Source: Thermoanaerobacterales bacterium
Lineage (GTDB): Bacteria > Bacillota > Thermosediminibacteria > Thermosediminibacterales > Tepidanaerobacteraceae
Reading direction: 5' to 3'
Length of the DNA stretch: 64,000 nt
NCBI GenBank assembly: GCA_012840135.1
Contig: DUMA01000022.1
Span: 1 to 64,000, forward strand
The first letter of the stretch is position 1; every line of letters begins with the position of its first letter. The notes under the pieces were generated by a model. That model had not been told where the DNA came from and ran no database searches. It was given only the letters and a program-made list of their open reading frames with translations. Position numbers and translations under genes: made by a program. Of the stretch, positions 17,438-46,653 are shown piece by piece.

Positions 17438-17683
17438 ATGAAGACTAATAAGTATAAATACGAAGAGGTATTGAGCAGATTGGAGGAAATCACCAACCAG
17501 CTTGAAAAAGGGAACCTGACGTTGGAAGAGGCTTTAACACTTTTTGAAGAAGGTATAAACTTGACAAAAGTATGTTCTAAAATACTTGATGAAGCCGAAG
17601 GAAAAATAGAAGTATTAGTAAAAGACCTGAATGGCAATATATCTTTAAAAGACTTTAATGGAGGTTCTGAAGAGATTGGATGA
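17438..17683 (+). CDS. xseB: Exodeoxyribonuclease VII small subunit
   Basis: YEEVLSRLEEITNQLEKGNLTLEEALTLFEEGINL. Confidence 0.96.
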   Translation: MKTNKYKYEEVLSRLEEITNQLEKGNLTLEEALTLFEEGINLTKVCSKILDEAEGKIEVLVKDLNGNISLKDFNGGSEEIG

Positions 17684-18566
17684 ATTTGAAAAATTATTGA
17701 ATCAAAGAGCAAAAATAGTCGATGCTGCTCTGGATTTTTATTTGCCCAGGGAAAGTGATTATCCGGAGAAGATACATAGAGCAATGCGATACAGCGCTCT
17801 TGCCGGAGGGAAAAGGTTAAGACCCGTAATGGTTATGGAAAGCGCGAAACTGTTCGGTTTACCCTTTGAAAAAGTCCTTCCTACTGCTTGCGGCATAGAA
17901 ATGATACATACTTATTCGCTCATACACGATGATTTGCCCGTGATGGACAATGACGATTACCGGCGCGGAAAGCCCACCTGTCATAAAGTTTTTGGAGATG
18001 CGGTAGCGTTGCTGGCCGGAGATGCTCTTCTAACACATGCTTTTTCAGTCATTTCAAAAAACTCCAGAATTGATGGTATTTCTCCTTTAGCGGTGATTGA
18101 AGTAATAGAGAGGGTGGCCTGTGAAGCCGGCAGCAAGGGAATGGTGGGGGGTCAAACTGTAGATATAGAAACAACCGGTATGAGTATAGATAAAGAAACT
18201 CTATTATATATTGACAGGCATAAGACAGGATGCTTGATCTGTGCTTCACTCTGGGCCGGCGCAAGACTTGCCGAAGCTTCAAAGCAGGATTTAAATGTGA
18301 TAAACAAATATGGTGAAAAGATCGGCTTAATATTTCAAATAGTTGATGATATCCTGGATATCAAGGGTGATGAAAAATTACTAGGCAAACCTATAGGTAG
18401 TGATGCAAAAAATAAAAAAAATACTTTTCCTTCCCTTTTAGGTTTTCAAGAATCTCTTGAAATGCTGGAATGTCTCTGCAAGGAAGCAAAAGGGCTTATA
18501 TCCGAGTTCGATGGCAGCGATTTTTTTATGAATCTGGTAGATTATTTAAAGTCAAGGCGTTATTGA
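17658..18566 (+). CDS. ispA: Polyprenyl (farnesyl) diphosphate synthase
   Basis: YSLIHDDLPVMDNDDYRRGKPTCH and QIVDDILD Asp-rich motifs. Confidence 0.96.
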   Translation: MEVLKRLDEFEKLLNQRAKIVDAALDFYLPRESDYPEKIHRAMRYSALAGGKRLRPVMVMESAKLFGLPFEKVLPTACGIEMIHTYSLIHDDLPVMDNDDYRRGKPTCHKVFGDAVALLAGDALLTHAFSVISKNSRIDGISPLAVIEVIERVACEAGSKGMVGGQTVDIETTGMSIDKETLLYIDRHKTGCLICASLWAGARLAEASKQDLNVINKYGEKIGLIFQIVDDILDIKGDEKLLGKPIGSDAKNKKNTFPSLLGFQESLEMLECLCKEAKGLISEFDGSDFFMNLVDYLKSRRY

Positions 18567-18671
18567 ATCCTGTGGTGTTTCGTTGTATGAATCATTGACC
18601 AGTGTTGATGCACTATATTTCAGTAAGTGGGTTTAGCCTGCTTTTTTGGTTGATAGCCGCTTTTTATCAAT

Positions 18672-18700
18672 TTGAAGGGCTATATCTTTTGTGATATAAT
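18672..18700 (+). promoter_or_regulatory. Sigma-A-type promoter for OLE RNA
   Basis: TTGAAG (18672-18677), 17-nt spacer, TATAAT (18695-18700). Confidence 0.75.
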
Positions 18701-18715
18701 AATTTTCGAATCGAA

Positions 18716-19320
18716 AAACAGGTGGTACAGTATTCTAGTCAAAATCGCTTCTCTGAAGGCGGGGCTAAAAATCCGTCAAGGGCACATCGATGAAGTTCCT
18801 AGTGCTGGCTGCCGACGCCCAGTCGGGGGCTGGTGCTGGGAGTAAGGGAGCTGGGGCGATCTACAATGGCATGTAGGCGTTGACCCTACTCCCGTGGAGA
18901 CCCAAGTTCGTGACTGAAAGGGATATCCTGAAGTTATGGCTTGGGGTGTGAACCTGCATTCGATTACATGTTGGGTGCAGTGTAGCCTGCCTTGAGTGAA
19001 AAGGGTGGAAAAAGGCATTTTGGTCCAAAATTTGAATTGGCCAATTCAAATTTTGGAGAATACCCTTTGAAACCTTTTTTGCAAAAGAGGCTAGGAGAAG
19101 ATGGATTTTGGTGGGGAAAACCCCTAGACTGTTCCATATGGAAGTGGATTGAGGATTACAGTGTGGACTAAGTGGTAATCTAGCATTGCCTATGGTGACA
19201 TGGCAAAGGCGGGCTTAAAGGGGAACCGTCTTATCGGCGACGATAGGATGCCTTCCTGGGAAATCCAGCTGGACCTAAGCCACAAAATTTACTCAATTCA
19301 CTGCCACCTGTTTCGGTAAA
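18716..19320 (+). ncRNA. OLE RNA (ornate, large, extremophilic)
   Basis: About 605-nt non-coding, structured interval between ispA and a multi-TM protein gene; closing helix AAACAGGTGG (18716-18725)/CCACCTGTTT (19304-19313); matches known OLE location and size. Confidence 0.9.
19025..19056. repeat. Perfect 32-nt palindrome inside OLE RNA
   Basis: CCAAAATTTGAATTGG|CCAATTCAAATTTTGG. Confidence 0.9.
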
Positions 19321-19337
19321 CTTATGGAGGTTAAAAG

Positions 19338-19970
19338 TTGAGTTCCGACTCAAAAAAATATATTTCCGGGAAAACATCAAAAAAGAATAGAAATAATGAA
19401 AACAACGGAGGTACAAAGGCTAAGTGGGTATATCGGGTTTTTATTTTAGCGTTTGGACTGTCCGTTTTTTTTAGTTTTATTTCTGAAACAGTTATGGACA
19501 GGGTAAACATCATTGTTTCAGTTTTTTTATTGCTGATAATAATAGCCATAGGCATCCTATTTGATATTATAGGTATCGCCGTAACTTCTGCCAGCGAAAC
19601 TCCTTTCCACGCCATGGCTGCAGACAAAGTGCCGGGTGGAAGGGAAGCAGTAAAATTAATACGCAATGCCGATATAGTATCGAATTTTTGCAATGATGTG
19701 GTTGGAGATATTTGCGGGATAGTCAGCGGTGCAGCAGGTGCAGCTATGGTGATTAAAATTCTTGTTCTTGCAAAAAGTATAAATGAAACAGTTTTAAGTA
19801 TATTTATGGCAGGGGTTATTTCGACTTTAACCATAGGCGGTAAGGCTATAGGAAAAGGTATAGCGATAAAGAATTCAAAAAAAGTGGTTCATGGGGTGGC
19901 ATTGTTCCTGAATCTTTTGAAAAAGCGCATGGGGATCGATTTGTTCCCAAGTGGCAATGGTAAAAAGTAA
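19338..19970 (+). CDS. oapA: OLE-associated protein OapA (multi-TM)
   Basis: Immediately 3' of OLE RNA; several TM segments; VTSASETPFHAMAADKVPGGREAVKLIRNADIVSNFCNDVVGDICGIVSGAAG. Confidence 0.87.
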   Translation: MSSDSKKYISGKTSKKNRNNENNGGTKAKWVYRVFILAFGLSVFFSFISETVMDRVNIIVSVFLLLIIIAIGILFDIIGIAVTSASETPFHAMAADKVPGGREAVKLIRNADIVSNFCNDVVGDICGIVSGAAGAAMVIKILVLAKSINETVLSIFMAGVISTLTIGGKAIGKGIAIKNSKKVVHGVALFLNLLKKRMGIDLFPSGNGKK

Positions 19971-19992: not shown

Positions 19993-20796
19993 ATGAGCAA
20001 TATAAAGGAACGGCTGGATGTTTTGCTTGTGCAGAAAGGCTTTTTCCCGAGCAGAGAAAGAGCTAAAGCAGAAATTATGGCAGGCAATGTTTATGTGGAA
20101 GACAGGCTTCTTGATAAACCCGGAAGTTTGGTGAATATAGACAGCAGGATAGAGATAAAAGGAAAAGCCATTCCCTATGTCAGCCGCGGAGGATTGAAGT
20201 TGGAAAAAGCCTTATCTGTTTTTAACATACAATCCGAGGGTAAAGTTGCCATCGATGCAGGTGCATCTACTGGTGGCTTTACCGATTGTCTCCTGAAAAA
20301 TGGCGTCCGAAAAGTTTTTGCAGTCGATGTGGGTTATGGTCAGCTTGATTACGGTCTGAGAAATGATCCGAGAGTAGTTGTCTTAGAAAGAACTAATGTG
20401 CGCTATTTGAATATGGAAGATATAGGCGAAATGGTAGATATAATAACAGCTGATCTGTCATTTATATCACTCTCACTGGTTTTTAAACCTTTTAAAGAAT
20501 TGTTGAAAGATGATGGAGATCTGATAGTCCTAATTAAACCCCAATTCGAAGTGGAAAAACAGGAAGTCGGAAAAAATGGTGTAGTAAGAAGCATAAAATT
20601 GCATGAAAAAGCTATAAAAAGAGTCTTCGAAAGCGCCAATGAAAACAACTTTTTTGAATGGGGGCTTGATTTTTCTCCTATTACAGGTCCTAAAGGGAAC
20701 ATCGAATTTCTTGGATGGTTTAAGAAATGCCCGAAGCAGGAAGGGATCATAGATATAGAAAAAGTTGTTGAAAATGCTCATTTAAAATTGCTTTGA
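19993..20796 (+). CDS. tlyA: TlyA family RNA methyltransferase
   Basis: ERLDVLLVQKGFFPSRERAKAEIMAGNVYVEDRLLDKPG (S4); AIDAGASTGGFTDCLLKNG. Confidence 0.95.
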   Translation: MSNIKERLDVLLVQKGFFPSRERAKAEIMAGNVYVEDRLLDKPGSLVNIDSRIEIKGKAIPYVSRGGLKLEKALSVFNIQSEGKVAIDAGASTGGFTDCLLKNGVRKVFAVDVGYGQLDYGLRNDPRVVVLERTNVRYLNMEDIGEMVDIITADLSFISLSLVFKPFKELLKDDGDLIVLIKPQFEVEKQEVGKNGVVRSIKLHEKAIKRVFESANENNFFEWGLDFSPITGPKGNIEFLGWFKKCPKQEGIIDIEKVVENAHLKLL

Positions 20797-20845: not shown

Positions 20846-21367
20846 ATGAATAACCTTTTTTATATTTTTCTCTGGATATTTCTTGGGGCTGCAGCGGCAG
20901 TTACATTTTTAAAATATTTCAGGCGATGGAAAATCAAAAAAAGAATTTTCAAAGCAAGGAAACTGGAGCGCAAAGCGGTGGAATTATTGAAAAAAAACGG
21001 TTTTGAAGTAGTAGAACTTCAAAAAGAAAGTCATTATACACTTTTCATTGACGGGAAACCTTACAAGGCTGCCGTAAAAGCCGATATGATAGTAAAAAAA
21101 CACAATAAAATCTACGTTGCGGAAGTAAAATCCGGTGACCGTTCGCCCTCTCCAAGATTCATAGATACCCGGCGGCAACTTCTGGAATATTATCTCGTGT
21201 ACAGACCCAAAGGATTGCTTCTTGTGGATATGGAAAAAGAAAAAATACGAAAAGTAGAGTATTCCATGTTAAATTCTGGATATCCTTCGTGGCTGGATTA
21301 TGTTGGATGGCCTGCAATAATTCTCTTTGTCGGGTTTATCATAGGTTTTTTAACCAGAGGTGTTTGA
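20846..21367 (+). CDS. Membrane-anchored PD-(D/E)XK nuclease-like protein
   Basis: N- and C-terminal TM segments flank YKAAVKADMIVKKHNKIYVAEVKSG. Confidence 0.6.
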   Translation: MNNLFYIFLWIFLGAAAAVTFLKYFRRWKIKKRIFKARKLERKAVELLKKNGFEVVELQKESHYTLFIDGKPYKAAVKADMIVKKHNKIYVAEVKSGDRSPSPRFIDTRRQLLEYYLVYRPKGLLLVDMEKEKIRKVEYSMLNSGYPSWLDYVGWPAIILFVGFIIGFLTRGV

Positions 21368-46410: not shown

Positions 46411-46576
46411 GAACCTCATCTCGACAAGAGTTGAGGTAGAGGCGCGGTGAATCAAGAGTATCCTTGCGGAGGCTGGAAACCGATAATGTAAGGAAAAAGG
46501 GATCACCGCCGAAGTACGGTTTTTATCCGGAGAACCGTGCTGGGACCATAGCCGAACAGGTATGGTACTGTCACCA
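46411..46576 (+). promoter_or_regulatory. Lysine riboswitch (L box) upstream of lysA
   Basis: AGAGGCGCGG...AAGAGTAT...GATCACCGCCGAAG...CTGGGACCATAGCCGAACAGGTATGGTACTGTCA; located upstream of diaminopimelate decarboxylase. Confidence 0.93.
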
Positions 46577-46653
46577 AAAAAATCCCGATTTTTTTGGTGG
46601 AGCGCTACTTCAGTTTAGGGAAAGAGAGGAGGTATTTGCCTTTAGACCATTGG

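Follow-up and report, generated by a model that had tools for sequence, protein, structure and literature searches.

A complete OLE RNA, with OapA, OapB and OapC homologues, in a bacterial family without dxs

The window, meaning the whole 64,000-nucleotide stretch of DNA analysed here, is confirmed to contain a complete and typical copy of OLE RNA, a new representative of an established RNA class. Here the RNA persists without a dxs neighbour in a lineage that has lost dxs. With a probability of roughly 0.88, the locus is that of a standard OLE ribonucleoprotein, comprising an RNA with its own promoter and a P1-closed fold, the partner proteins OapA, OapB and OapC, and no working part for Dxs. 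Gene neighbourhood has been among the main clues in the long search for what OLE RNA does, and the locus amounts to a natural experiment on the proposed link between OLE and Dxs. That dxs was lost repeatedly while OLE and oapA were kept takes Dxs off the list of required partners and sets it apart from the neighbours that stayed, ispA and tlyA. The features of the window are as follows:

17658-18566, + strand: gene for farnesyl diphosphate synthase (ispA), which precedes OLE (NF045485 FPPsyn, 354.5 bits, over cut-off; PF00348)
18672-18700, + strand: predicted OLE promoter, with a -35 element TTGAAG at 18672-18677, a 17-nt spacer and an extended -10 element TGATATAAT at 18692-18700 (scan, conservation)
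18706-19323, + strand: gene of OLE RNA within its Rfam bounds (RF01071, full-length match at 545.7 bits)
18716-18725, + strand: P1 closing helix, 5' strand AAACAGGTGG (compensatory changes, pairing probability)
19039-19042, + strand: GGCC palindrome, loop of the long P9 arm (sequence; self-kissing dimer contact described for OLE)
19304-19313, + strand: P1 closing helix, 3' strand CCACCTGTTT (compensatory changes, pairing probability)
19326-19330, + strand: GGAGG, Shine-Dalgarno sequence of oapA, 12 nt past P1 (sequence; position kept in the family)
19338-19970, + strand: oapA, for the 210-aa membrane protein that partners OLE RNA, TTG start (OapA homology, OLE context, predicted fold)
19993-20796, + strand: tlyA, encoding an rRNA methyltransferase, the next gene after oapA (TIGR00478, 264 bits, over cut-off)
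46429-46615, + strand: lysine riboswitch (Rfam cmscan, 134.5 bits)

An Rfam cmscan of the whole window returned two RNAs, OLE and the distant lysine riboswitch. A sequence-only reading of the window had placed OLE RNA at this locus and staked that claim on a covariance hit across 18716-19320; the match to RF01071 (gathering threshold 50 bits) runs over 18706-19323 on the + strand with E=3e-157 and fills model positions 1-616 of 616. It is the only copy in the 3.18 Mb genome, and its bit score is the top OLE score within the family. The RNA is of the full-length type, 618 nt with all model positions filled and the P7-P9 region aligned, as opposed to shortened OLE variants 1 and 2. Standard pairs are formed at 150 of the 159 mapped model pairs in the window sequence, the other nine being non-standard. 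Among 78 aligned OLE sequences, two-sided changes were observed at 129 of 160 pairs, a number reached in 0 of 500 shuffles, and 88.0% of cells across the whole structure were paired, versus 73.8% in shuffles and 41-48% when the partners were slid.

The helix formed by AAACAGGTGG and CCACCTGTTT is unpaired in the Rfam structure line and corresponds to P1 of published OLE models (PMC12265935). In the same 78 sequences, nine of its ten pairs carry two-sided compensatory changes, the types seen being AU, GC, UA and CG, and pairing holds in 83% of cells, while the inner seven pairs have a pairing probability of ~1.0 in the window. The closing helix named from the sequence alone was thereby borne out as P1; the structured region stood as well, its stated length of about 605 nt being close to the outer span of 598 nt from helix to helix. 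Together, the covariance model and the covariation show that the RNA folds into the P1-closed OLE structure. The P9-arm loop of OLE carries GGCC, GAUC or AGCU palindromes (PMC12286853), the first of which is present here, and as a member of the family the RNA would dimerise partly via this loop, following the published model.

The promoter TTGAAG-N17-TATAAT, likewise proposed from the sequence alone, is convincing only because it is conserved among relatives. A single-sequence scan of the region gave 9 sites versus 8.3 expected, which is chance level, whereas TTGAAn-N17-TGnTATAAT was found in all 11 of the family members aligned (the window and ten relatives), among which the rest of the ispA-OLE spacer could not be aligned. 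In the window, TATAAT lies at 18695-18700 with TG ahead of the -10. Upstream of OLE at 67 other loci, a perfect TGnTATAAT occurred in 44 versus 0.6% of shuffles, and at least five of six -10 positions plus the TG in 54 versus 6.9% of shuffles, with these counts inflated by relatedness and the control shuffles being of single bases only. The element is predicted to be OLE's own promoter, of the sigma-A extended -10 type, from which the RNA would be transcribed independently between ispA and OLE. No description of a conserved OLE promoter was found in a literature search whose reach did not extend to the original subscription papers. A separate promoter for OLE may not be general among hosts, because the Halalkalibacterium halodurans gene cluster is reported to be co-transcribed as one polycistronic RNA (PMC12265935). 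Ahead of the promoter, after ispA, there is a terminator-like hairpin at 18625-18643 (+), and a similar hairpin with base changes was seen in the same-genus relative L010; it was rejected as a terminator between ispA and the OLE promoter, its frequency being within chance expectation.

On the other side of the RNA, oapA starts 15 nt past the Rfam end of OLE. The absence of an intrinsic terminator between OLE and oapA in the window, where the sole hit was inside oapA, together with the position of the Shine-Dalgarno sequence 12 nt past P1, points to one shared transcript for both. Within the window's family, a single transcript would most likely supply OLE and oapA, with OLE either staying as a leader or being cut out. 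This arrangement favours a reading in which OLE is mainly a cis-regulatory leader, with P1 folding controlling oapA translation or transcription and a trans-acting particle secondary. A further point in its favour comes from relatives of Thermosediminibacter. Hairpins such as TTCACCTCGTTCGAGGTGAA-T7 lie just 3' of OLE in L095, L097, L098 and L101, and in the first three of these loci the hairpin includes the oapA Shine-Dalgarno sequence and part of the P1 3' strand, so that it and the long P1 are mutually exclusive, with shuffle fractions of 0.02-0.07 for the hairpin switch. However, exposure of the Shine-Dalgarno sequence in the isolated 3' tail was no lower than in shuffles in the window's family, for which a P1/Shine-Dalgarno switch was therefore rejected, and the full OLE fold exposes that sequence inconsistently (window 0.01 vs 0.07). 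If such a switch exists, it would be in the three Thermosediminibacter relatives. Moreover, a hairpin with a T-run parts OLE from oapA in approximately 30 loci of other clades, and H. halodurans knock-outs reportedly reveal functions of OLE in trans. A role mainly as leader is consequently improbable, and the standard ribonucleoprotein remains the preferred reading.

Where the T-run hairpin is present after OLE in other clades, its combination with the conserved extended -10 suggests that in many Clostridia OLE forms a transcription unit of its own, a point that matters for expressing or deleting the RNA. Within the OLE-oapA gap of Alkaliphilus, Tissierella and related loci, a near-constant hairpin of the form GCTGATAGC-loop-GCTATCAGC with a T-run after it was observed (for example L149 near 2320, L124 near 5890 and L107 near 5925), and this is likely the OLE terminator, one unusual in its sequence conservation.

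The identification of the multi-transmembrane gene downstream of OLE as oapA, already made in the sequence-only reading, is supported by 36-89% identity to the products of OLE-following oapA genes (36 other members aligned). When species genomes were searched with an OapA protein alignment as the sole query, 80 oapA loci were recovered, with OLE directly upstream in 79 and the 80th locus starting inside oapA. The AlphaFold model of OapA (mean pLDDT 82.8) places residues 56-194 on the CNNM protein MtCorB (7m1t) with 2.1 A over 129 residues and Z 13.1, which for a helical bundle is near the level where chance arrangements of helical proteins can occur. The four best structural matches are all CNNM/CorC, with the next, unrelated row at Z 8.1 and 11.5 A, and the same CNNM/CorC structures rank first in Foldseek with modest E-values. 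The Pfam CNNM model gave 22.8 bits for the window protein, below its gathering cut-off of 28.4, and matched 23 of 37 OapA proteins, mostly weakly. The membrane fold predicted for OapA is that of CNNM/CorC magnesium transporters, in agreement with its published likeness to the Mg2+ transporter MpfA (PMC11332333). As in MpfA and CNNM/CorC proteins, a core of membrane helices is modelled in the CNNM fold, and as in known OapA the termini are positively charged and the gene follows OLE. Unlike MpfA and CNNM/CorC, OapA is a membrane domain only, 210 aa being too short for CBS or CorC-C. Its Pfam match falls below cut-off.

Homologues of the two further partner proteins were both found in the genome. 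A 98-aa protein encoded between map and infA resembles the solved OapB, a KOW protein (7k9b, E=1.4e-13); the PF00467 (KOW) search did not pick it up, and it was located by position and confirmed by this similarity. The candidate OapC is an 82-aa YbxF homologue of the L7Ae family encoded between rpoC and rpsL. By family membership, OapA would hold OLE at the membrane with OapB and OapC bound to the RNA. In H. halodurans, OLE has been described as serving the response to Mg2+, to cold, to alcohol and to energy stress, and the complex most likely serves the same responses here.

Like OLE of H. halodurans and Clostridium acetobutylicum (RF01071), the locus has a full-length match, P1 as well as the other Rfam helices, a long P9 arm with its GGCC loop, and the flanking genes ispA before OLE and oapA immediately after it; OapB and OapC homologues are likewise encoded in the genome. 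It differs in having its own extended -10 promoter and no OLE-oapA terminator, and in having no dxs after oapA or anywhere in the genome, an adjacency that is frequent and not defining.

The departure from the usual gene order, noticed in the sequence-only reading, held: the gap between oapA and tlyA is 22 nt, with no dxs between them. Across 76 resolved cases (75 loci plus the window), dxs lies between oapA and tlyA in 48 and tlyA directly follows oapA in 28. No dxs match above the curated-model cut-off was found in the window's own genome or in any of the 13 family genomes, and dxs was also absent genome-wide from all 20 further genomes with the oapA-tlyA order; the six control genomes with the usual order all contain it, at 821-861 bits. 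These results rule out relocation of dxs to elsewhere in these genomes. Assembly gaps are not the cause, because a number of the 20 genomes come from isolates (Thermosediminibacter litoriperuensis, Fervidicola ferrireducens, Thermovorax subterraneus, Tissierella pigra and Anaerosalibacter). In a tree of IspA, OapA and TlyA, three arrangement changes are needed, and well-supported branches force three. The changed groups are the window's group with Thermosediminibacteraceae, a Tissierella group and one further long-branch genome of unsure placement. The OLE-oapA pair was kept through each of at least three changes. As the dxs arrangement is widely spread, the direction of change would be loss of dxs rather than gain. 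The results support a genome-wide loss common to the whole family and at least two other lineages, and an oapA-tlyA order that is a recurrent second arrangement of the OLE locus and not something particular to this genome.

Because dxs was lost while OLE, oapA, ispA and tlyA stayed in order, Dxs is not counted among the working parts of the OLE complex. The opposing possibility, that OLE works with the isoprenoid pathway via its neighbour Dxs and that dxs is merely elsewhere or replaced here, draws on the 48 of 76 cases in which dxs adjoins oapA, on ispA still lying upstream of OLE and on a suggested GapA/Dxs connection (PMC10898510). It is mostly refuted by the absence of dxs from the 13 family genomes and the 20 further genomes, and by the survival of OLE, oapA and their order through at least three arrangement changes. 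The best matches to the dxs model in these genomes were split transketolase pairs; transaldolase-like and rpiB-like genes adjoin one such pair. The pairs were rejected as a hidden dxs and judged to be probable ordinary transketolases, because the dxs-bearing controls have similar half-length matches in addition to a full dxs. A Dxs-dependent OLE is accordingly very improbable, and a ribonucleoprotein without Dxs is retained.

The isoprenoid pathway of these genomes is altered beyond dxs. There was no dxr in any of the 13 family genomes. In the window's own genome, the interval between cdsA and rseP, presumably the expected position of dxr, holds an AI-2E family membrane protein (PF01594; L059:18702-19772 (-), G000:C18 near 168700-169770), and a similar ORF occupies it in the relatives tested. 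ispG is present in 12 of the 13 genomes. A mevalonate pathway was considered as a replacement and rejected; no mevalonate kinase was above cut-off in the 13 genomes, and two weak GHMP matches in the window's own genome resemble, in sequence and gene context, homoserine kinase and a cobalamin-cluster kinase. DXR-II (DRL_cat) was found in 12 of the 13, at up to 237.8 bits, in several cases sharing an operon with glucitol-type PTS genes; both DXR-II operons read through contain E1 alpha, E1 beta, E2 and E3 dehydrogenase genes:

L172:3767-13507 (G001), also L173, L174 and L175: DXR-II operon, with sugar-binding regulator, GutM, glucitol-type PTS, DRL, E1 alpha, E1 beta, E2 and E3

This operon may make or break down DXP or methylerythritol phosphate in genomes that have neither dxs nor dxr. 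That Tepidanaerobacter Re1 has DXR-II, and that there are many species without Dxs, was already known (PMC3847144, PMC10663253). A possible extension, which we regard as rather unlikely, is that loss of dxs marks a rebuilt start of the pathway, with MEP coming from DXR-II fed by a non-Dxs TPP enzyme or directly from 2-C-methylerythritol that is imported and phosphorylated by the PTS, and with the OLE particle independent of Dxs. If true, a repeated natural deletion would prove that independence.

It is barely credible that this copy of OLE is degenerating and functionless, since nothing beyond the nine non-standard pairs of 159 was found in its favour, and its score at the top of the family, the intact oapA, oapB and oapC homologues and the conservation of promoter and P1 across the family speak against it.

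Further downstream in the window, an ORF of 173 aa, with a membrane segment at its N-terminus, lies between tlyA and nadK at 20846-21367 (+). ORFs of similar size (171-183 aa) are present in most relatives of the window's group, and the window's copy has a weak, sub-threshold match to Cas4 (TIGR00372, 25.5 bits).
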